This document shows, piece after piece, positions 45,973 to 57,297 of a DNA stretch of 64,000 nt. Source of the DNA: Novipirellula galeiformis (lineage in GTDB: Bacteria > Planctomycetota > Planctomycetia > Pirellulales > Pirellulaceae); contig NZ_SJPT01000001.1 in the NCBI RefSeq assembly GCF_007860095.1, forward strand, positions 944,212-1,008,211, in the 5' to 3' direction. A program made the position numbers and the translations under genes. Below the pieces are notes generated by a model. It was not told the DNA's origin, ran no database searches, and saw only the letters and a list, made by a program, of their open reading frames with translations. Each line of letters begins with the position of its first letter. Position 1 is the stretch's first letter.

Positions 45973-46332
45973 GGGATCGGTGCAGTGGCCTTGAACTCTC
46001 GGTAGCGAAGCTCGCAGGATGAGAGTGTCGCCGATTCTTCGTCGAGCGTGAAGCGGTGCAATCTCGCGGTGAATGCCGGGACGGAGCACGTCGGGTGTCC
46101 CCCCCGGCATATTCCACCCGCTCGAAGCGGCCCCCCCAACGCGGAAGGTTTTTGCAAAAGGCTTCGTCTCGCGGGTGAGTCCGCGGGGTATCGGAGTGAA
46201 TTGGGAACTTTGATGATGTACCGGGGGGCGTCAAACCGTTTTCCTGGGGCACTTCGACCGCTAATTCGCGGTTTCCCATTTTCAGAATCAAGCCGTCTGG
46301 AGAAACGCTCGCTTCATGATAGCCTTAGTGCC
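45973..46332. other. Intergenic region between divergent genes
   Basis: About 360 bases between the DUF4184 gene and pabB. Both frames stay open into it, but neither extension looks like protein. No promoter picked. Confidence 0.5.
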
Positions 46333-47802
46333 ATGACCCGCTCGACCACCTCGCTTCCCGTGATCCGACGCTTACCCGACGATTTTTCGATCGAGCGAGT
46401 TTTTTCACATTTTGCTAGCCGTGCGGGGTGCTTGTGGTTTGATTCGGTTCCCACCGCTCCCTTTGCGGCGTCGGCCGCAGACGACGCTGCTATCGATCTG
46501 CCGTCGGCCCGTTATTCCTTTCTGATGTCGGACCCGCTTCGCACCTTGGTCGCGGAGGTGGGCGACCCCGATCCTTGGCCCCTCTTGGAAAAGTGGTTTC
46601 GTGACATGCCCTCCGCGGTCGTTCCGGGGTTGCCACCGATGCAGGGGGGAATCGCGGGTTTGATTGGATACGAAGCGGCGACGTGGCTCGAGCGTGTGGG
46701 CGTGTCTCGGCAAAACGAGCTTCCCACGCCCGCGATCTCGCTGGGGCTCTATGACTGGACGATTGCGACGGATCACCACCTGGGGCAATCGTGGTTGATC
46801 TCTCAAGGGTTTTCGGTCGATGCAGACGCTCCATCCCCAGCGGATCGGTTGCAGCGAGCGAACGATCGCGCCGATCAAGTCGAGTCGCAAATCCGTCTCG
46901 CTTTGGAGAGGGCTCCGGAGTCCACCGTTGCGCGGCCCAGTGAAGCTCGCAGCGATCGGAATCAGGTCACCAGTAATTTTAGCAGCGAAGGTTTTCGCGA
47001 AGTGATTGCCGAAGTGGTTCAGCGGATTCGTGATGGAGACTCATTCCAGGTGAATTTGGCTCAGCGGTTGTTGCATCCCGCTGTGCTTTCATCGGCTGCG
47101 CTTTACCGTCGGCTCCGCGAAGCCAATCCTGCGCCGTACAGCGTTTATTATCACGGCGATGGATTTGACGTATTGAGCAGTTCGCCCGAGTTATTTTTGC
47201 AGCTCGATCATCACAAGGTGCAAACGCGACCGATCAAGGGAACGGTGCCGCGAACCGGTGATCACGATCAGGATCAAAGGCTTGCCGAGTCGCTGCAGCA
47301 GAGTCTCAAGGATCGCGCCGAAAACATCATGATTGTCGATTTGATGCGAAACGATCTGTCACGGGTCTGCACCGACGAGAGTGTTCAAGTGCGCCAATTG
47401 TGCCAAGTGGAACGCTATCAGTGCGTCCAGCATTTGGTTTCGATTGTGGAAGGCGAACTGCGAGACGGGTGCAGCATCATCGACTTGCTCAAGGCCTGTT
47501 TTCCGGGGGGCAGCGTGACGGGGGCTCCCAAGATCGAAGCGATGCGGACGATTGCGGAATTGGAGCCCGATCGTCGAGGCCCCTATTGCGGTTCGATGGG
47601 GTACATCAGTTGTTCGGGACAAGCGGAATTCAATATCTTGATTCGCACGATCACGGCCACACGAGGGCAATGGCAACTTCACGTCGGTGGCGGCATCACC
47701 GCCCGCAGCAACCCGCTCAGCGAAGAGGCCGAGACGTGGGCCAAAGCCGAAGGAATTTTGCGTGCGTTGCCTGCCCCTAATCACGGCCAAGAGACAGTCT
47801 AA
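46333..47802 (+). CDS. pabB: Aminodeoxychorismate synthase component I
   Basis: Converts chorismate and ammonia to 4-amino-4-deoxychorismate for folate synthesis. At 489 residues it is normal for the anthranilate synthase I/PabB family. The key motif is PIKGTVPRT (near residue 300): the Lys is characteristic of PabB, where TrpE usually has Ala (PIAGT). Other conserved segments are GDSFQVNLAQRL, AENIMIVDLMRNDLSRVC, CFPGGSVTGAPKIEAM and FNILIRTITATRGQWQLHVGGGI. The ATG at 46333 begins the first conserved region. No pabA (amidotransferase) is adjacent. Together with thyA/folA it adds to folate metabolism genes scattered in the window. Confidence 0.92.
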   Translation: MTRSTTSLPVIRRLPDDFSIERVFSHFASRAGCLWFDSVPTAPFAASAADDAAIDLPSARYSFLMSDPLRTLVAEVGDPDPWPLLEKWFRDMPSAVVPGLPPMQGGIAGLIGYEAATWLERVGVSRQNELPTPAISLGLYDWTIATDHHLGQSWLISQGFSVDADAPSPADRLQRANDRADQVESQIRLALERAPESTVARPSEARSDRNQVTSNFSSEGFREVIAEVVQRIRDGDSFQVNLAQRLLHPAVLSSAALYRRLREANPAPYSVYYHGDGFDVLSSSPELFLQLDHHKVQTRPIKGTVPRTGDHDQDQRLAESLQQSLKDRAENIMIVDLMRNDLSRVCTDESVQVRQLCQVERYQCVQHLVSIVEGELRDGCSIIDLLKACFPGGSVTGAPKIEAMRTIAELEPDRRGPYCGSMGYISCSGQAEFNILIRTITATRGQWQLHVGGGITARSNPLSEEAETWAKAEGILRALPAPNHGQETV

Positions 47803-47894: not shown

Positions 47895-47967
47895 GCCCCT
47901 ATAGCTCAGTTGGTAGAGCAACGGACTCTTAATCCGTGTGTCCAAGGTTCGAGCCCTTGTGGGGGTA
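47895..47967 (+). tRNA. tRNA-Lys (anticodon CTT)
   Basis: A 73-base cloverleaf: 7-bp acceptor stem (with two G:T pairs), D arm with AGTTGGTA loop, 5-bp anticodon stem around CTCTTAA (anticodon CTT at 47928-47930, reading AAG), a five-base variable loop, and a T arm with TTCGAGC. The discriminator base is A, and CCA is not encoded. Anticodon and stems are unambiguous. Confidence 0.96.
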
Positions 47968-48732
47968 CTTTTAATCTAACGATTTTCTTAAAAAGCCTGC
48001 AGTTCGCGGGCTTTTTTCGTTTTCAGGCGGCGGGGAGTTTCTTTTTCCTGCCGAGCCCCCTGTCCTGCCTCGCCATCCCGGCGAGCTCCTTGTGGCGGTG
48101 ACCTCATCGCGATACCGCTCGCTCGATTCACCGACGGGCCGATGCAATCCGTTTGAGCCTACTTGCTCGACCCAATTCTTGGGGGGGATGGTTAAGGGAG
48201 GCAAGTCACGGACCATTTCGGTCGTTAGGGCGTCTCGGCAGATCAGAGCGGGCTGTCACGTCAGCGGGGCGAGAGACACTTGCCCGGCATTTTTCTTGGA
48301 TCGTGCCTATCGAGAGGACATCGAAGGGACACTCGATGCTGAATTTCTTTTTTTTGCCGTCATTGTGACTCGCTTCGAACCGCCGAACGCTGGCAAACAC
48401 AATGGTGCGATTGAGGCAATCGCACCAGCCGATTCGGGGGCACCGGCGGCCTCTCGTTGGCTGCGCCGTCCGCACTATTAAGTCGACATGGAGTTAACTT
48501 TCTGACGTCGTTTCCCCACGTCGCGTTTGGCGATGCGTTTTCTCTTTTTTGACTGCTTTATTGCTGGGACATCCTGCTGTCTCACGCATGTCTCGCGATG
48601 TCCTTGCCCGCTAGAAGTGCAAGGTCATCGGGAACGCTCCTCCGAAGGTGACCATTGACAACCATGTTGTCGCAAACGTCTTGCGGGTAACGGTCATCAT
48701 CATTTGAGGAGCGGAAGAAGCATCGGTTCAAT
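47968..48732. other. Intergenic region before the FeeM-like gene
   Basis: About 765 bases. Apart from the tRNA terminator at 47991-48017, I see no supported gene; a 129-codon plus frame at 48092-48481 has no binding site and a shuffled composition. GAGGAG at about 48704 lies too far from the next start to be its ribosome binding site. This gap marks the left edge of the accessory-looking block. Confidence 0.5.
47991..48017 (+). terminator. Terminator of tRNA-Lys
   Basis: A 9-bp stem (one G:T pair) with a T6 run begins 24 bp after the tRNA. Confidence 0.85.
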
Positions 48733-49386
48733 ATGCGTTCTAGCGGAGTGGGTTTAGCAGGCCAATATCGCTTTCTCTTCGAAGATGTAACGCTCGGCCT
48801 CACGATCGCTCGGGACTTCGGGACGGAGAATCGTGTGCATGAGCAAGTGATGCAGGTACGTCGCGAAGGTGGCGGTGAGCAAGAGTACTTTGATTTCGAC
48901 TCCTATAGTTTTCATTACAGCTTGCTCTACGAAGGACAACCCGTCGGTGCGATGACGGCAACGCGTCCCGTCGATGGAGCGATTGATTGTTCCGATGTGT
49001 ATGCACCGCAACTGATGACGCGTTACCACGATTGTCTGGTTTCGACGTGCAAGTTCCGCATCAACCGCAGCGGTTGTTCGTCACTGAAAACGTTACGAAC
49101 GATGGTACGCGAGTTTTGGCGAGACCAAGTCAGTGTTGGTTCGCGATTGAATCTGATCAACGCAGACAAAAAGATGGTTGCGTTCTATCAACGGATGGGG
49201 TACTGCGTTGTCGAAGGATCGGATTTCATTCATCCCACGTTGGGCACCGATAGCGTGGTGATGATGATGTCGGCCGATCCCACTCGGAAGTCTTTCTGTA
49301 CCGATATTTTCTCCAACCTCGATGACGTCCTGTCGATGGACGAAGTCATTACAACCTGTAGCGAAAGTCTACTCGTCGATTTGTAA
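48733..49386 (+). CDS. FeeM/LuxI-like GNAT acyltransferase
   Basis: A 217-residue protein that looks like the N-acyl amino acid synthase (FeeM) branch of the GNAT superfamily, relatives of LuxI autoinducer synthases. What I see: an N-terminal segment, then FDFDSYSFHYSLLYEGQPVGAMTATRPVDG (the strand pair after the acceptor loop), VSTCKFRINR (the usual strand before the acyl-CoA/ACP loop), a helix (SLKTLRTMVREFWRDQVSVG) and LINADKKMVAFYQRMGYCVVEG, the Y.RMGY end typical of these enzymes. If so, it joins an acyl chain to an amino acid or similar amine. Similarity is at motif level only. The start lacks a good binding site. It precedes the ANL-like gene by 200 bp. Confidence 0.55.
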   Translation: MRSSGVGLAGQYRFLFEDVTLGLTIARDFGTENRVHEQVMQVRREGGGEQEYFDFDSYSFHYSLLYEGQPVGAMTATRPVDGAIDCSDVYAPQLMTRYHDCLVSTCKFRINRSGCSSLKTLRTMVREFWRDQVSVGSRLNLINADKKMVAFYQRMGYCVVEGSDFIHPTLGTDSVVMMMSADPTRKSFCTDIFSNLDDVLSMDEVITTCSESLLVDL

Positions 49387-49586
49387 GCCACTTGGCTGTC
49401 GCACTTCGATCGAAATCAAGATCAGAATCTGTAACCCTATCTAGCCGTCGTTCTTTCGGATGAAGTTCTTCGCGAGTGATTTGATCGGTTCCCTTCCCGG
49501 AACGTCAAAGGAACGCTCGTTCACGAAGATCGGCTCTCCGGAAGGACAGCGGAGCCTTCCTTTCAAATTTTTGGCAAACAACGACG

Positions 49587-50558
49587 ATGATTAAACCGAA
49601 TTCGCCTGGGCGAACCGAACTGGGACAACATCAATTATCGTACGCTGCGGGCTCGACATCACTGGAGCCCTATGGCTTCCGGATCTTAGGGCAATCGGAT
49701 AACAACCGCTTGGATCATTTGTTGTCCTCGTTTCCAGAGCTGTCGCGTTTGCTCCATCGCGAAGCATTGATTATCAGCGCGTATCCTGCGGCGTTGGGGC
49801 TAGCCGGTTTTGCGCCGCTGGTGGATACCTACCTTCATCCGCCTACCTTCATTCGTGCGATGAGATTGGCTGCGATCGAAGACCGCTCGGTGGTCTTTGC
49901 CGCGCAGCCACTCGCGGGCGTGGATTTGCTGTTACGCGCGATTCATCAACAAATGGAGCTGCCACAGCGAATGCTGTGGGCGGCGGGGGGATATTATTTT
50001 CCTCGCTCGCTTGAAGTGTTTATTACAGATTGCTTGGCGCAACAGGGGTGTCAAATTGAGTACCTGCACTGCTACGGGGTTGCTGAGATCGGCCACACCT
50101 GTTTCGCCGCGATGGAGCGATTTGATTCGGGGCATCCACGTTTTCGGAAAGTGGCTCCGGAAGTAACCGCTTCGGTGATCGGGGGGAACAGCCAACTTGC
50201 TTTGCAACGCAGTGACGGTCGTTCGATCGTAACGGAAGACTATGCCGATGAAATCAACGGCGAATGGTTGATTCAGAGCGGCCATGGCCGAATGTGCCCC
50301 GAGGTGCGTGAGCAGCTCGAGTCGTGGTCGCATCAAGATTGGATGCGTCGCACCGGGTATCTCGCCGCTCAAGCAAAAAACACTCGCTATCAGTTACGCG
50401 AATGGGTCGAGTGCTGCGGGGATGAACGCGAGCTGCGGTATTTTCGCTTCTGGGAACAGCACGGCGGTTCGCTGCAGTGCAAGCCAAAGTGGAATCGAGC
50501 GTCCGCGTCTGCGGTTACGCCACCGAGCGGACCCCATCCCGTCCCGCATCGTATTTGA
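49587..50558 (+). CDS. Protein resembling an acyl-adenylating enzyme (N-domain fragment)
   Basis: A 323-residue protein of uncertain family. Residues about 120-215 resemble the core of AMP-forming (ANL) enzymes: MLWAAGGYYFPRSLEVFITDCLAQQGCQIEYLHCYGVAEIG, where GYYFPRSL stands for the GGxxLxxxL region and YGVAEIG for the A5 motif YGxTE. A P-loop-like A3 motif (YTSGTTG) and the C-terminal lid domain are not seen, so it may be a degenerate or minimal relative. Activating a fatty acid for the GNAT next door would fit, but is inference. The 3' end overlaps the convergent XRE gene by 44 bp. No clear binding site; start is the first ATG. Confidence 0.4.
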   Translation: MIKPNSPGRTELGQHQLSYAAGSTSLEPYGFRILGQSDNNRLDHLLSSFPELSRLLHREALIISAYPAALGLAGFAPLVDTYLHPPTFIRAMRLAAIEDRSVVFAAQPLAGVDLLLRAIHQQMELPQRMLWAAGGYYFPRSLEVFITDCLAQQGCQIEYLHCYGVAEIGHTCFAAMERFDSGHPRFRKVAPEVTASVIGGNSQLALQRSDGRSIVTEDYADEINGEWLIQSGHGRMCPEVREQLESWSHQDWMRRTGYLAAQAKNTRYQLREWVECCGDERELRYFRFWEQHGGSLQCKPKWNRASASAVTPPSGPHPVPHRI

Positions 50559-51582
50559 TCGGCTTGACGACGCGTTGGAATGCGCTCAGTGTTCTGGCGA
50601 TCACGCGGCGGCGTGTCGCCGAGCGGAATTGCGAGCCAACCACGCGATGAAACAAGTGCGCGTAGTGAGTCGTGGTGGAAACCCGCGTGTAGGTTTCGTC
50701 CGAGCCGCCATCGTACTCCTGGGCGAATTCACAGATGGGAAAATCATACTCGGGCATCACCTTGGTGGAGTATAAGAATCCAATCGATTTCTGGCGTCGC
50801 ATGTTGGTCGAGCTGGCACCGAACGAGAGCATTCGGAAATCTTCGGCCAGCGGATCTTTGGCAAGCATCGCGATCTGACAGAACACTGCATAACTGAGAC
50901 TGTCAGTCACTTTGTACCAAGCCGGCCCACGGGTTTCCGAGAATTCGACGGCCGTGTCGAGCACCAAGTTTTGGCTTTCATCGAGGATATCGTCGGGACC
51001 AATATCCATGAACGAGATTTCGCCATCACGTAACTGTTCGTATGCGGAATCGGTTACGGGCAAAACAACACTGGCCCCATTTCGCACTCCTTCGGAGGCG
51101 GACACGATCAAGGTTTGCGGATGCCGTTGCCAAAGCGAGAGGTAGCGGTCTTCGTAGCGAAAGTATTGTTCGTTTAGCTTTTGGTTTCCGGCTCGGAAAA
51201 TTTCGTCATAGTTGCTGGGCGCCGAACACTCCAGATGAACGCCCCAACTCTCTCGCATCCGTTGGATGACGTTGCGGACGTCTTCGTCGTCTTCACAGAA
51301 AGCTTGTTGGCTAGGAACCGTCTTGCTTTGGATGAACTGCGACAACGACCATGGCCAGGCGTCAAATTGGTCGTCGGTCGGAGCGCTTTCCTGAATGACT
51401 TCTTCGTAAGGGAGGTCCAGGGCTTCGGCGATGCGGCGAAGCATCTTTGCTGACAACCGCTGTTTGCCCGCTTCGGCAAATTGCAGAGTCCGAACGGCAA
51501 TGCCAGCCTGGACGGCAAGTTCGAGCTGCGAAAGGCCTAGCTCCTTGCGGGTCTGGCTAATCTTGATACTACCTTTTGGCAT
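50515..51582 (-). CDS. XRE-family regulator with a GNAT-like C-terminal domain
   Basis: A 355-residue protein. Residues about 8-62 are a Cro/C1-type helix-turn-helix (ISQTRKELGLSQLELAVQAGIAVRTLQFAEAGKQRLSAKML). The rest (about 105-330) looks like an acyltransferase-type alpha/beta domain: IFRAGNQKLNEQYFRYEDRYLSLWQRHP, GASVVLPVTDSAYEQLRDGEISFMDI, then FRMLSFGASSTNMRRQKSIGFLYSTKVMPEYDFPICEF, which has the N..R.K.IGF flavour of GNAT folds. It may bind the product or an acyl donor and act as a sensor. It is convergent with the ANL-like gene (44-bp overlap), and a perfect palindrome sits against its start. Likely autoregulated. Confidence 0.6.
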   Translation of the reverse strand: MPKGSIKISQTRKELGLSQLELAVQAGIAVRTLQFAEAGKQRLSAKMLRRIAEALDLPYEEVIQESAPTDDQFDAWPWSLSQFIQSKTVPSQQAFCEDDEDVRNVIQRMRESWGVHLECSAPSNYDEIFRAGNQKLNEQYFRYEDRYLSLWQRHPQTLIVSASEGVRNGASVVLPVTDSAYEQLRDGEISFMDIGPDDILDESQNLVLDTAVEFSETRGPAWYKVTDSLSYAVFCQIAMLAKDPLAEDFRMLSFGASSTNMRRQKSIGFLYSTKVMPEYDFPICEFAQEYDGGSDETYTRVSTTTHYAHLFHRVVGSQFRSATRRRVIARTLSAFQRVVKPIKYDAGRDGVRSVA

Positions 51583-51597
51583 ATTGAGTTACTCAAT
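51583..51597. promoter_or_regulatory. Perfect palindrome at the XRE gene start (probable operator)
   Basis: ATTGAG-TTA-CTCAAT, a 15-bp palindrome with 6-bp arms, directly adjoins the start codon at 51582 and takes the place of a ribosome binding site. Placement and symmetry suit an autoregulatory operator for the dimeric XRE protein. Confidence 0.5.
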
Positions 51598-52203
51598 TCC
51601 GAGCTTTAAAAAAAAATTAGCAACCCAGCGGTCAACTTGCGCCATCATTGCGCACAACAATCAACTGCTTATTGTAATCTAGATCGTTGTGGGGTCGGCG
51701 GCTTGAGGTGGATCTTTTAGCGAGATCTTTGGGGCATCACCTCAGGCCACGACTCCCTCTATTTGACAGCAACTCTCTCCTGATTGCAAATTCAATTGAG
51801 GAGATTGTTTCGCTTAAAAGGTGCGTTTTTAACGCATTTGCGGGCCTCGCATGGCCATCCTGACCCAGCGTGGCTGGTACAGATTGCCAACAAGGAAAAG
51901 GGTACCCTGATCGAAAAATCTTCCCAGCAGATATCGGACCGTTTTGGGGGGCGAAATGGCAATCTTGGTTTCGCAATCTTGATCTTGGGTTCGGAATCGA
52001 GGTACCGCCCTTTTCTCTAGGTTCCGCCGTTTACCCCCTCCGCCACATCGCTGTCGCGGTGGCTGCTTTGGCGGGGTGAACGTGAGTCACGCCGATGGTA
52101 TCAAGGCGGGGCGGGATGCTAATTACTTCTTATCCGTGACACGTTAAACATGAGAGTGTGTCACTGAAGATGCACTTTGAAATCATACGCAACGGAGGCA
52201 CAC
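51583..52203. other. AT-rich intergenic region between divergent genes
   Basis: About 620 bases, more AT-rich than its surroundings, between the XRE gene and the NACHT gene. It holds the palindrome at 51583-51597, a TGCGC/GCGCA inverted repeat around 51638-51654 and an ACAAT/ATTGT inverted repeat at 51657-51675. Short plus-strand frames here have no support. Confidence 0.5.
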
Positions 52204-55200
52204 ATGATTGAGGCAAAGACTGCCATGGAGCGGGCGTTTCTGCTGTTGGCGGAGGCGGAGTTGGGGACTTGTTCCACTTGGCCACGTCCTGGTTGGCAGC
52301 AGGCAAGTGCCCCCGGTTCACGTGGCTCCCATTCCAATGCGCTGTCTGCAAATGGCCAGGGGCCCGATGAGCACCGTTCCCTCGAAGACCGTGTCGAATC
52401 GCTCGCCATTTTGTTGGACATCTTGCCTCGGAGCCGGCGGTCGGAATTAAATTCGCTCGTTAGCATGTGGTCCCAGCATTACTCGGCGAGCCGCTTTGTT
52501 AGCGCCGACGAGCTGCGACGGATCACCCGTCGCTGTTTGCGAACGCGAACGGCTCAAACCGCGACGGTTCCTAACTTTTTTGCGACCGCCGCATCGATTG
52601 CTCAGCAAGGCCGAGATGCGGACGCAGCGGTTTTGAGCAGCGTGACTCGATCGCAAACCGAGTGTTCCCCCACCGCAGAACAGCATTGCGTTGACGGATT
52701 GCAAACCTGGTTTGAGCACTTGCATCGAAAACAGTGTTGGACGCACCTCCCATCGGTGGTGCCCGGCGACAAGCCCGTTGCGGTGAACGAGATGTATGTC
52801 GAGCTCTTACTAAAAACGGATCGATCGGGTGAACGCGAGTTGGGTTTGGGCTCTGCTGGCATTGGGGACTTGCCCAACGCGGCGACGTCATGTCGTCATC
52901 CCGTGCCGCAATCACACGATGATGTTGGTGATCCAAGCGAGTGGAGAGAAAACGATTCCTTGTTGGACATTCGTACGATTGTTGCACGAACATTGAATCG
53001 ATGCGTTATCGTGGGTAGCCCCGGCAGCGGCAAGTCGACCTTGATCCAGTGGTTGGCTCAGGAGGTGGTGCGCGGCGGCATCCGAGACTTTGATGTGCCG
53101 ATCGTGATTGAGTTAAAGCAGTACGCTCGATCGCTTGCGGAGCATCCCGATCTCACGCCGCTACAGCATTTCTTTCGATCGCTGGGTAATCGCCACCTCG
53201 ATTCGGATGCCGCGTCGGTTTGGTTGCGGCGAGTTTCGCGTAGCCATCATCGAGTGTTGTTGATGTTCGACGGCTGGGATGAGGTTCCCGCTGAATCGCG
53301 GGCGAACGTTCGAGAGCAGCTAGAATCCGAAGCGAGTGATTTTGTCACCTTGGTCACCTCGCGACCCTCGGGGGTGCCGCAATCGTTATGTGACCGAGAA
53401 CACGTCGACTTTTATCGGATCGCGAACCTGTCGTCACGTTCGGCTGCTCAATTAGCGACGAATATTATTCGTAATCGCTTCCACTCCCATCCCGCCGGCG
53501 ACGGTTACGCGAATGCGATCATTGAGCAAATTCAATCCTCTGCAGAGCTGCGGACGTTGGCCAAAAACCCATTCTTACTTGGGCATGTTGTGCATGTGTT
53601 GGCCGATGCGTCGACTCGGCCTGGATCACTTAACCCGGCAAAGGCAATCGAGCAGGTGGTCGCCTGGGTCCGCAAGCAACACAATTTTGTCGCCGATCCC
53701 TCCAACCTGCTTCGCGTCGAACATCTACAGTCGCTGAGCCGATTTGCGTTTGATCGACTGTTCGCTGCGGAACGCGGTCGCGAGTGGTTTCACGAAACGC
53801 AATTGCAACAAGTCACGACGTCAGACGGGGTGTCAGAAACACCATTGTTACAGAGTCGGTTTATCGATCGGGGCGACGCGATGATCGATGAATACCGGTT
53901 TTCCTGCCCCGCGTTTCAGACATTCTTTGCGGCATTGCATGTCACCTCAATTCAATGTGCCACAACCCAAGCCGCGATTTTTGACCAAGCGATCCATGCC
54001 TCCAATCGCACCGAGGTACTCAACCACGCCGTAGGATTAAGTGAAGCGTTTCGCAAAGTGAGTCTGGAACGGGCTGCGTATTGGCTGCGGCATGGCGATG
54101 GTTTCCACCAGATTCTTTTGCGGTTGGCAAAGCTTGCCGCGATCGCTCGCCAAGTTCAAGGCAACGTTCATGCAAACGATGCGAAGTCCAAGGATTGGTC
54201 TAGCTTGATTGAACCGATCCGCAACAAACTGTGGCGATTGACCCAGGAAAGTTGCGATCCCATTGCGACCCGCGCGTACGTTCAAAGTTTAGCGGAATTG
54301 GATCCTGCATTCTTGCTTCGCAAAGCGATCTCATCGGTCGACTTGGATGAGTTTGTGCTGAGGTGTATCCACCGATGTCTTCCGGATGATTCCGGTTTCG
54401 GCGGCGAGAGGGTCCCGCGGCGAAACGTCACTCGAGAGGGAGGTGACTTGCCGCATGCCACGCTCGTTCCGCTAGAGCGAGATCGTGTGGTTCGTCGATT
54501 GGCGGCACTCTCGCCCGATCACCCCGAGGTCAAACAGGGCATCCAGCGGTTGGCGGGCCAGTCGGTTCGCGATGGCGCTAACGTGATCATGGCGATCGCA
54601 TCGGCGAGCATGGTTTGTGGTGACGTTCGCGCCACCGCGATCGAGATCGCGATGCGGTCTGCGGATCAGCGAATTCTCGATTGCATGGCAAACCAAATCG
54701 AGCGGGAGCATGATCCACGAGTTCAAAAGTCGCTGCTGCGTTTGGCCTTGGAACGACCCGTCGCATTCGATTTAGGCTGGCTCGAGACGCAAATTCGGAA
54801 AGACCTGGAGCACTCGTTTCATTCCTTGATGGTGCGGGTCTACGGCTGCGGTGCCGCGCCACGGACGCCAGACGAACGTTTGCGAATACGCCGTTTCTTC
54901 AGTGATTTGGTCATTTCGGCAATGAACCACGGCGACTCTCGCTCAACTGGATCGCTCACCGAATGTCTCCGCCTCGTTGCTCACACCGATGCGGGCGGGT
55001 TGGTGGACGATCGCGTCGTGTCGGCGGCCATCGATCGGATGATTCGTTTTAGCAAGGCACCTCAAAGCCAACGTCCCGAGGGAGTGTTGCTTGCCGCTCG
55101 CGTCCTGGTGGGCATTCCCAGCTTGGGGAATCGAATTCACTTGAAAAAGACCTTGGACGTGGCCTTGGACTTGGTTTCGTCGTGGAGCACGGGCACGATT

Positions 55201-55779
55201 CCGCTGACCGAAGCGGAGGTCATGCGCAGAGAGCGTTTTGCCACGGCGATCGCGCAATGTCTGGTCGAAGTCGATTGCGGCCTCCTGCTTGGTTACGACC
55301 GGTCGTGTCGCCCCGTCCAAACGGCGCTCCAATCGGCTGCGTTCGAGCATGGTTGGCTGGTGTTCAACGAACGTGTTCTCGATCGGGATGGAGTTGAAAT
55401 TGCCATTGCCGATGGCGATTCACTCGATCCCGTCGGTTGCACGACGTCCGAAGCGATTCAAGAAATCATGCACGACCTTCCTCCGCGGCAACGAAGTGAC
55501 TTTCTTAGTTACTGGCATATGGTTTGCGAAGGAGACGCCGACTATGTGCTCACCGAGCGAGAAACGGTTCATGAAGCCATTTGTACCGTGATGGCATCGG
55601 ATTTGAATACCGAACTGAGTGAACGTTTATGGTCGTGTTACCAAGAGGGCAAACCTCCTAGTTTCGCTTCGTGGAAAAAGAACCTCGCTCGCGTGGTTCA
55701 GCGTTATGAGAATCGTCCTGAATTACTTGCTCACTTGCAGCAATTGGGCTTGGGGATCCATAAACGAAAACCGCGATAG
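52204..55779 (+). CDS. NACHT-domain STAND NTPase
   Basis: A 1191-residue signalling NTPase. A helical N-terminal region (about 1-255) contains no effector domain I can name. The NACHT module spans about 265-560: Walker A VGSPGSGKSTLIQWLA near 270, IVIELKQYARSLAEHP, Walker B VLLMFDGWDEVP near 350, SRPSGVPQ, and the downstream LRTLAKNPFLLGHVVHVL and LSRFAFDRLF winged-helix stretch. The C-terminal half (about 580-1191) looks like HEAT-like helical repeats, the usual ligand-sensing part. The start is the ATG with GGAGG 7 bases upstream. Bacterial NACHT proteins include anti-phage NLRs, but others are regulators. No toxin or nuclease gene adjoins it. Confidence 0.88.
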   Translation: MIEAKTAMERAFLLLAEAELGTCSTWPRPGWQQASAPGSRGSHSNALSANGQGPDEHRSLEDRVESLAILLDILPRSRRSELNSLVSMWSQHYSASRFVSADELRRITRRCLRTRTAQTATVPNFFATAASIAQQGRDADAAVLSSVTRSQTECSPTAEQHCVDGLQTWFEHLHRKQCWTHLPSVVPGDKPVAVNEMYVELLLKTDRSGERELGLGSAGIGDLPNAATSCRHPVPQSHDDVGDPSEWRENDSLLDIRTIVARTLNRCVIVGSPGSGKSTLIQWLAQEVVRGGIRDFDVPIVIELKQYARSLAEHPDLTPLQHFFRSLGNRHLDSDAASVWLRRVSRSHHRVLLMFDGWDEVPAESRANVREQLESEASDFVTLVTSRPSGVPQSLCDREHVDFYRIANLSSRSAAQLATNIIRNRFHSHPAGDGYANAIIEQIQSSAELRTLAKNPFLLGHVVHVLADASTRPGSLNPAKAIEQVVAWVRKQHNFVADPSNLLRVEHLQSLSRFAFDRLFAAERGREWFHETQLQQVTTSDGVSETPLLQSRFIDRGDAMIDEYRFSCPAFQTFFAALHVTSIQCATTQAAIFDQAIHASNRTEVLNHAVGLSEAFRKVSLERAAYWLRHGDGFHQILLRLAKLAAIARQVQGNVHANDAKSKDWSSLIEPIRNKLWRLTQESCDPIATRAYVQSLAELDPAFLLRKAISSVDLDEFVLRCIHRCLPDDSGFGGERVPRRNVTREGGDLPHATLVPLERDRVVRRLAALSPDHPEVKQGIQRLAGQSVRDGANVIMAIASASMVCGDVRATAIEIAMRSADQRILDCMANQIEREHDPRVQKSLLRLALERPVAFDLGWLETQIRKDLEHSFHSLMVRVYGCGAAPRTPDERLRIRRFFSDLVISAMNHGDSRSTGSLTECLRLVAHTDAGGLVDDRVVSAAIDRMIRFSKAPQSQRPEGVLLAARVLVGIPSLGNRIHLKKTLDVALDLVSSWSTGTIPLTEAEVMRRERFATAIAQCLVEVDCGLLLGYDRSCRPVQTALQSAAFEHGWLVFNERVLDRDGVEIAIADGDSLDPVGCTTSEAIQEIMHDLPPRQRSDFLSYWHMVCEGDADYVLTERETVHEAICTVMASDLNTELSERLWSCYQEGKPPSFASWKKNLARVVQRYENRPELLAHLQQLGLGIHKRKPR

Positions 55780-55809
55780 GGAGTGAGGAGTGACGCTCTT
55801 CACGCGGTT

Positions 55810-57297
55810 CTACCGTAGCTTCAACACGCCGCGGATTTTGGCATTGACGATCGGGTCTCGCTCGTCGACGAGTCGTTGACGGAGTTTTTGGTTCATTGCG
55901 CTGTCGTTCATCGTGGCGATCACGGAAATCGTGCGCAGCCGCACTTCTCGACTTTCATCGTTCAGCAATAGCGTCAACCACGGCCGAGGGTCATCGATGC
56001 TCGAGCGAGAAATCGTATCCACCAATTCGATTCGCGACCCCACGTCCGCAGCGGCTATGTGAGTGGCGATTTCCATTTGCGACTTGGAAAATCCGCGGCG
56101 TTGTAATTCATTCTTGGCTCGCTCACGCAAATTCGCTTGCTCGCTGCCCAACCAATAGATGACCGATTCGGTCGTGTAGGTTTCTAGCGGCGACTCGGTC
56201 AAAAAACTTGTCGGAACGACGGGGCTCCGAGCCGACGCGGTTGAGGGTGCCATCGACGGCGGAGCCGTGGACGCCTGATCCGTGGATGTTGGGGCCATCC
56301 CCCGTGGATCATGAACATCGTTCAACACGATCGATTCGTTGGGATTGACGGGCTTTAACGCCGACGCGGACGAGCGATAGACCGACGGCGCGGGCGGGGA
56401 TTGCTCGGCGGCAGAGGCATTTTGAGAGGATCCGCCCGAGGAGATAATGGCGGGTTCGGCATCCGGCCATCCTGTCCATGCGTTGTCGGTATTGGCTTCG
56501 GAAACCGGCAGCGGTTTGGTGCGTACCGCCAATCGAACCGGCTGTTTGGGATCCAGGGGAGCGTCATCGACAACGCTCGCTCGGGCCCCGTCCGAAAGCG
56601 ACATGCGCGACAAGGTGGTCGTCGCTAAGTTGTAGAGGGATTGAGATTCTTGGTCACTCTTTTGCACGGACTCCATGATCGTTTGTTGCAACAATCCGCA
56701 ACTCCAACCGGTCCGCGACTCGGCAAGGGAGTCGGAGACCGTATCGAGTGCCATCACCATCGCGTGGTGGTGTTTGCGAGCGGTATTCCAATCGAGCGAC
56801 GTCCACGTGTTCTGGGACTCCAGCAGCAATTCGTACGCCGTCCGCGCCACTTCGGGCTGATGGTCGGTCATGGCATGGACCAGCGAATCGATCGCTGGCA
56901 AACCGAGTTCCGAAATTTGTAGCAGTCGTTGCTGTTTTTCTGCGACTTGAAGACTCTCAAAGTCACGCATCCATTGTTTGACAATCCATTGTTTGCTGTA
57001 ACTTCCCACTGCCAACGTCACGCCAAACAAGATCGCCACGATCGAAAAAAACTTGAGTGAGGTTTTGAATGCTTGGCGACCCGATCCCGGTTTCCCTGCG
57101 TTTCGCTTGACCGACCCATGGAGGTGCAGTGCGAAAGGATTGGGTAAATCGTGGGGGGCGCCGGATTGCATGTCAAAATCACCAGAATCAAGGAAGCTGC
57201 GGTCAATGGATTGTCGTGACAGAGGGCTTCCCGAGGCAAGGTCATTTTGACGCCGAACGGACGAGTCCGCGAGCGACGAGATCGGCGTATTCATCAC
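55810..57297 (-). CDS. HEAT-repeat membrane protein
   Basis: A protein of up to 495 residues. One membrane segment lies at about 81-100 (LKFFSIVAILFGVTLAVGSY) after a low-complexity N-terminus. Helical HEAT-like repeats follow on both sides of a Ser/Pro/Ala-rich spacer (about 225-360): residues 120-215 and 375-495 (LLLNDESREVRLRTISVIATMNDSAMNQKLRQRLVDERDP). The start is unclear: ATGs at 57297 and 57294 overlap the upstream gene by about 55 bp, while an ATG at residue 43 (57171) avoids the overlap; none has a clear binding site. It is probably co-transcribed with the lipoprotein upstream. Confidence 0.75.
   Translation of the reverse strand: MMNTPISSLADSSVRRQNDLASGSPLSRQSIDRSFLDSGDFDMQSGAPHDLPNPFALHLHGSVKRNAGKPGSGRQAFKTSLKFFSIVAILFGVTLAVGSYSKQWIVKQWMRDFESLQVAEKQQRLLQISELGLPAIDSLVHAMTDHQPEVARTAYELLLESQNTWTSLDWNTARKHHHAMVMALDTVSDSLAESRTGWSCGLLQQTIMESVQKSDQESQSLYNLATTTLSRMSLSDGARASVVDDAPLDPKQPVRLAVRTKPLPVSEANTDNAWTGWPDAEPAIISSGGSSQNASAAEQSPPAPSVYRSSASALKPVNPNESIVLNDVHDPRGMAPTSTDQASTAPPSMAPSTASARSPVVPTSFLTESPLETYTTESVIYWLGSEQANLRERAKNELQRRGFSKSQMEIATHIAAADVGSRIELVDTISRSSIDDPRPWLTLLLNDESREVRLRTISVIATMNDSAMNQKLRQRLVDERDPIVNAKIRGVLKLR

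Follow-up and report, generated by a model that had tools for sequence, protein, structure and literature searches.

A short stretch of the Novipirellula galeiformis chromosome raises the question of whether neighbouring genes for acyl transfer, acid activation and regulation constitute one N-acyl unit, or whether they happen to lie side by side. The window analysed here, by which we mean the whole 64,000-nt stretch of DNA, covers positions 944,212 to 1,008,211 of the forward strand of NZ_SJPT01000001.1 (assembly GCF_007860095.1). A preliminary description had proposed three neighbouring genes in it, and the corresponding open reading frames, P1, P2 and P3, were confirmed. They form a cassette in the order P1, an optional gene Px, P2 and a convergent P3, followed by a divergent P4 (Table 1; L and G numbers denote loci and genomes). 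No match to a plasmid origin was detected. The window yielded a single tRNA gene, a tRNA-Lys (CTT) at 47895-47968, which separates the cassette from the gene at 46048-47802.

Table 1. Positions in the window of the cassette genes, the methyltransferase relic and the two candidate control elements
Feature	Position	Strand	Basis
Four-box array GGGACA-N6-TGTCTC-N5-TGTCTC-N4-TGTCCT	48566..48604	+	23/24 consensus positions
P1, divergent FeeM-type GNAT, 217 aa	48733..49386	+	Pfam FeeM profile, relatives
Px relic, last 40 codons, one in-frame TGA	49465..49584	+	62% identity to L057 Px
P2, compact PaaK-like ANL enzyme without N-terminal subdomain, 323 aa	49587..50558	+	predicted fold
P3, XRE helix-turn-helix joined to GNAT-fold domain, 355 aa	50515..51582	-	HTH profile and predicted fold
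Palindrome TGCGC-N7-GCGCA, candidate P3 operator	51638..51654	.	ten bases kept in 14/14 loci
P4, NACHT STAND ATPase, listed from a putative TTG start	52177..55779	+	NACHT match
P4 C-terminal domain, 111 aa, most conserved part	55444..55776	+	conservation profile

Homologues were sought in 199 Pirellulaceae genomes, the window genome counted, and P1 was matched in 16, P2 in 15 and P3 (at E<=1e-8) in 23 of them. The preliminary description had tied the idea of a unit to a conserved neighbourhood in related genomes, and such a neighbourhood was found: P1 adjoins P2 in 15/15 P2-bearing genomes, and P3 lies convergent beside P2 in 14/15. In the fifteenth (G187), P2 sits at a contig end and a P3 fragment opens another contig, while the sixteenth P1 match (G184) sits in a different cluster. 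The carriers include Rhodopirellula maiorica, R. rubra, R. sallentina, Aporhodopirellula aestuarii, Neorhodopirellula pilleata, R. europaea and two uncultured Pirellulaceae, and G077 belongs to the same genus as the window genome. Because the flanks of these loci fall into distinct contexts (L055-L057; L058-L060; L061; L062; L063; L064-L068), the block has been kept together beyond general synteny. P1, P2 and P3 are thus genes that belong together.

FeeM is an N-acyl tyrosine synthase from soil DNA, and P1 had been taken for a FeeM/LuxI-like GNAT. The sole Pfam match of the window protein was indeed FeeM (PF21926), whose profile aligned over residues 53-179 at 22.3 bits, below the 27-bit cut-off; the neighbours of P1 differ from those of FeeM. 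That cut-off was passed by 6 of the 16 P1 proteins of the units (L058-L062 and L063), and the FeeM character of P1 is supported through its relatives, whereas the LuxI part of the assignment was dropped: at E<=1, Pfam and NCBIfam gave no autoinducer synthase match for the window P1, and the other members scanned had none either. The FeeM profile is what suggests a GNAT fold for P1, and PDB sequence searches with P1, as with P2, returned nothing useful. A common descent of the GNAT parts of P1 and P3 was considered and set aside on an hhalign probability of 0.1%, obtained with shallow alignments (Neff 2.9 and 3.8). Another FeeM-type cluster lies in G184 (L070, 8458-11560), in which a CDGSH zinc finger is fused to a P1-like domain, a second protein matches FeeM strongly (46.8 bits), and a haem-oxygenase-like protein (Haem_oxygenas_2) stands beside a look-alike.

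The acyl-adenylation-like core first suspected in P2 was recovered by structure prediction, by which P2 is assigned an ANL fold. The predicted structure aligns to PaaK1 only from residue 82 on, the N-terminal subdomain being missing. By sequence, P2 matched no Pfam or NCBIfam family, gave nothing significant against ANL profiles (AMP-binding was matched by 2/15 members, best E 0.09) and had no ANL match in a PDB profile search. P2 differs from PaaK-type ANL ligases both in its missing subdomain and in having no significant sequence match to them. Invariant in the 15 P2 sequences are SY-AGS-S at residues 18-25, GVAE at 164-167 and K299, which, judged by eye, may correspond to the ANL glycine-rich loop, YGxxE-like motif and C-terminal lysine. 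Among 343 phylum-wide genomes, with few candidates scored per genome, P2 was found in the window genome only, and all this search says is that P2 is rare.

A gene of about 240 aa, Px, lies between P1 and P2 in L056-L060, L062 and L063, and that of L056 is a class I SAM methyltransferase (Methyltransf_11, E 1.2e-15). In L069 (same contig as L084), methyltransferase and P2 form a single 589-aa fusion protein, whereas the MAG L085 has the methyltransferase as a separate gene. At this position the window carries a relic that matches residues 200-239 of the L057 Px (E 3.3e-5) and aligns at the DNA level with L056 and L057; no intact copy was found elsewhere in the window genome, the next match having an E of 0.13. 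Px is also missing from L061 and L064-L068, and it is thus dispensable and was probably lost more than once. Given these losses, the product should differ between lineages, and with Px broken in the window genome, the product there should be unmethylated.

The stop codon within the relic and the missing intact copy could also mean that the window copy of the cassette is a decaying remnant, the rest of which became non-functional after the methyltransferase was lost. We consider this very improbable. P1, P2, P3 and P4 are all open, and in comparison with two same-genus relatives dN/dS was 0.10-0.13 for P1, 0.08-0.10 for P3 and 0.12-0.16 for P4, with dS high throughout and saturated for P2. Moreover, L061 and L064-L068 are without Px yet retain P1-P2-P3, and both control sites described below are retained in the window.

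P3 overlaps P2 by 44 bp, tail to tail. The XRE helix-turn-helix and the acyltransferase-like domain that the preliminary description had read in it were both recovered, the former as an HTH_3 match at residues 10-61 and the latter through structure prediction, which places the C-terminal part of this 355-residue protein inside the GNAT fold. CurA GNATL and other enzymes that use CoA or ACP are among the GNAT matches listed for P3; FeeM and LuxI were not among the structure matches listed for P2 and P3, which excludes nothing. In a PDB sequence search with P3, the best 60 of 84 matches all fell in the HTH part.

GNAT toxins with DNA-binding antitoxins exist, and the combination of an XRE domain and a GNAT fold in P3 would also suit a toxin-antitoxin-like protein, with an active acetyltransferase and its repressor in one chain, whose place beside P1-P2 is incidental. 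P3 without P1 or P2 nearby in six genomes (G165, G028, G086, G110, G163 and G171) is in keeping with such an independent element; weaker partial P3 matches occur in G052 and G067. However, P3 lies convergent beside P1-P2 in 14/14 loci with a continuing contig, and does so across different flanks, and we consider the toxin-antitoxin reading quite improbable.

The reading of P3 as the regulator of the unit brings its upstream region into focus. The palindrome listed in Table 1 starts 52-75 bp before P3 in 14/14 whole-unit loci (the window and L056-L068), with 10/10 bases in each; in the window, it is close to P3, spanning 56-72 bp ahead of that gene's start, whereas the start listed for P4 is about 520 bp away. 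Beyond the whole units, it is complete in L071, retains 9/10 bases in L073 and L075, and is absent from L072, L074, L076 and L085. A wider P3 regulon was not supported by the palindrome, since the window genome holds 6 sites versus 26 for the backwards control, and the evidence for the palindrome is therefore its fixed place rather than enrichment. A P3 site before P1 was likewise rejected, with no more than 8/10 bases in 14 loci. Both P3 and the palindrome persist with and without P4, making P3 the natural reader of this element.

Several loci add to this picture of P3. Two overlapping copies of the palindrome occur elsewhere in the window genome (L094, 6354-6381; G000:C10:76353-76380), and this contig 10 pair, the part of the five other sites that was inspected, has no cassette-like gene nearby. 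The flanks of G165 match those of L064-L068, and its locus (L075, 7554-11057) retains P3 and a near-complete palindrome but lacks P1 and P2, possibly leaving a receptor without its synthase. Tandem copies of a related ORF of about 270-309 aa stand upstream of the lone P3 in L071 (919-6663) and L073 (1194-4703), regularly spaced in both (by 1605 bp in L071).

P4 lies beside P3 in divergent orientation in nine genomes, those of L055-L063. The NACHT domain was matched in the window P4 with an E of 4.8e-13 and 49.7 bits versus a cut-off of 26.7; the P4 of L062 also exceeded the cut-off (38.4 bits), and those of L061 (21.6) and L063 (24.0) fell below it. The last 221 residues of P4 used as a query matched 10/199 genomes, nine of them strongly and identical to the genomes of L055-L063 and the tenth (G085) weakly, at E 1.9e-4; no match was obtained in the five L064-L068 genomes or in G187. 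Conservation across the nine P4 proteins reached 0.72-0.75 in the last 100 residues versus 0.13-0.54 elsewhere, a pattern that would be unusual for a fast-evolving sensor. Pfam gave no DNA-binding domain in the P4 proteins or C-termini scanned and no credible match for the C-terminus (best E 0.012, a DUF), and the PDB returned just weak anti-sigma-like matches to it (E 0.096 and 0.24). A profile of the last 111 residues searched over 392 phylum genomes recovered the window's own copy and two weak matches in other planctomycetes (E 0.0015 and 0.0032), which proved to be small ORFs of another kind, so that no convincing copy of the domain was found elsewhere in these genomes. These two ORFs, in L096 (1375-1905) and L097 (1372-1875), carry a CF-PPAFSFW motif resembling part of this domain.

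The second candidate control element lies 129 bp before P1 in the window. Its consensus, GGGACA-N6-TGTCYC-N5-TGTCYC-N4-TGTCYC, comprises one inverted and three direct boxes with spacers of 6, 5 and 4 bases, so that successive boxes start at intervals of 12, 11 and 10 bp, close to one turn of the helix. The array scored 19-24/24 in 8/9 P4 loci and 17, the background level, in L061, which also has the most divergent P4 C-terminal tail, and scored no more than 14 in the five P4-less loci L064-L068; the consensus was defined on the same loci that were later scored, and these scores are not independent. Elsewhere in the window and L056-L078, scores did not exceed 17 except in L063, where the same upstream region gave 18; neither L069 nor L085 has a cluster of three strict boxes. 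An earlier search with GGGACA-N6-TGTCCC in six genomes gave one site each in four and none in G000 and G129.

Whether the array is single-copy genome-wide is the better test. Allowing <=3 mismatches, one copy was found in each of 7/16 genomes, always before P1, and the copy before P1 is the sole one in the window genome; the backwards control gave 2 matches in the 16 genomes. The array was missing from the other 9/16, two of which (G150 and G197) have P4, and it was thus present in 7/9 P4 genomes and in 0/7 P4-less genomes searched. As the loci without P4 and array mostly belong to one clade (L064-L068), this co-occurrence represents few independent events. Because the array tracks P4 rather than P3, P4 (or another factor) is the best candidate for its reader.

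A NACHT ATPase also invites a different reading, since such ATPases are common in bacterial anti-phage defence: the cassette could serve defence or self-recognition around P4, the acylated product being an alarm or second messenger. Outside its C-terminus, P4 is a fast-evolving protein. PADLOC gave weak matches of P4 to mad8 (E 0.0026), PprDinG (0.0055) and IetA (0.0094), and likewise of P3 to HTH_VI (8e-8), capH (2e-5) and RmrA (4.4e-5), in or near its HTH. By contrast, PADLOC gave no strong match for P4 and none for P1 or P2, five genomes (L064-L068) have the unit but no P4, and promoter control is what the array suggests, so that we regard a defence role as improbable.

Promoter control by a protein such as P4 has a precedent in MalT and other STAND activators, in which a large STAND ATPase acts on a promoter with phased direct repeats. 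P4 and its array share both features, but P4 differs in having a NACHT domain and no recognised DNA-binding domain, its binding to the array being suggested by co-occurrence.

Taken together, the decayed methyltransferase, the NACHT partner and the two promoter elements carry the functional link between these genes further than adjacency. The reading that we favour, for which we see an even chance, is an operon for an N-acyl metabolite, controlled by an XRE-GNAT regulator that senses a ligand and, in lineages with P4, by a STAND activator of the MalT type. As to substrates, ligand and the pairing of sites with proteins, we infer the following. P1 would acylate an acceptor that bears an amine and is most likely an amino acid, and P2 would activate a carboxylic acid as its adenylate, while Px, where kept, would methylate the product or a building block. 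P3 would be the cognate sensor-regulator: through its XRE domain it would bind TGCGC-N7-GCGCA in the promoter of its own gene, and the acylated product or a precursor would dock in a pocket formed by its GNAT-fold domain. P4, where present, would act as a MalT-like activator, its conserved C-terminal domain reading the four-box array before P1.

Among the nearest described systems are the stieleriacine clusters of Stieleria, in which NasY occurs, according to a 2025 report, with ThiF-like, nitroreductase and methyltransferase genes (PMC12479983); the words regulator and ligase are absent from its main text. The cassette resembles these clusters in belonging to the same bacterial family and in combining a FeeM-type N-acyl amino acid synthase with a nearby methyltransferase. 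It differs from them in its ANL-fold enzyme, XRE-GNAT regulator and NACHT protein, and a scan of five window ORFs (48733-57297) matched neither a ThiF-like protein nor a nitroreductase. The pairing of a GNAT-type synthase with a neighbouring regulator also recalls the logic of LuxI/LuxR, but P1 has no LuxI match and P3 pairs HTH_3 with a GNAT fold and is not LuxR. Among the literature matches listed, judged by titles and the starts of abstracts, none described the cassette.

Alternatively, the operon may yield a secondary metabolite, a lipid, surfactant or antibiotic like the stieleriacines, that is not a signal, with P3 and P4 tuning it to metabolic state, for instance through acyl-CoA or acyl-ACP in the GNAT domain of P3. 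Planctomycete N-acyl tyrosines are reported to be made by FeeM-like (NasY) enzymes with methyltransferases nearby (PMC12479983), and the CoA- and ACP-using enzymes among the listed P3 matches would fit such a sensor. However, dedicated regulators and single-copy control sites suggest a private circuit, although they are compatible with a metabolite of this kind, and we consider the non-signal reading a serious candidate that is on balance rather unlikely.

The favoured N-acyl operon could go further and serve as a new planctomycete cell-cell signalling circuit, with a GNAT-XRE receptor, an NLR-like STAND ATPase switching the synthase operon on via the array, and dialects arising from repeated methyltransferase loss; this extension is tentative, and we think it unlikely. 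A 2025 review of planctomycete metabolites (PMC12078418) covers stieleriacines and contains neither the word quorum nor homoserine lactone. In the literature seen, how planctomycetes regulate their N-acyl tyrosines, and whether one of these compounds acts as a genuine signal that has a dedicated receptor, is an open question. To this question the cassette brings a synthase, a candidate receptor sharing the acyltransferase fold, a candidate NLR-like activator and two control sites, all in one small clonable stretch. It would thereby allow direct tests of three ideas: that a receptor can be built on an acyltransferase fold, that a NACHT protein can serve as a transcription factor, and that products diversify when a tailoring gene is lost.
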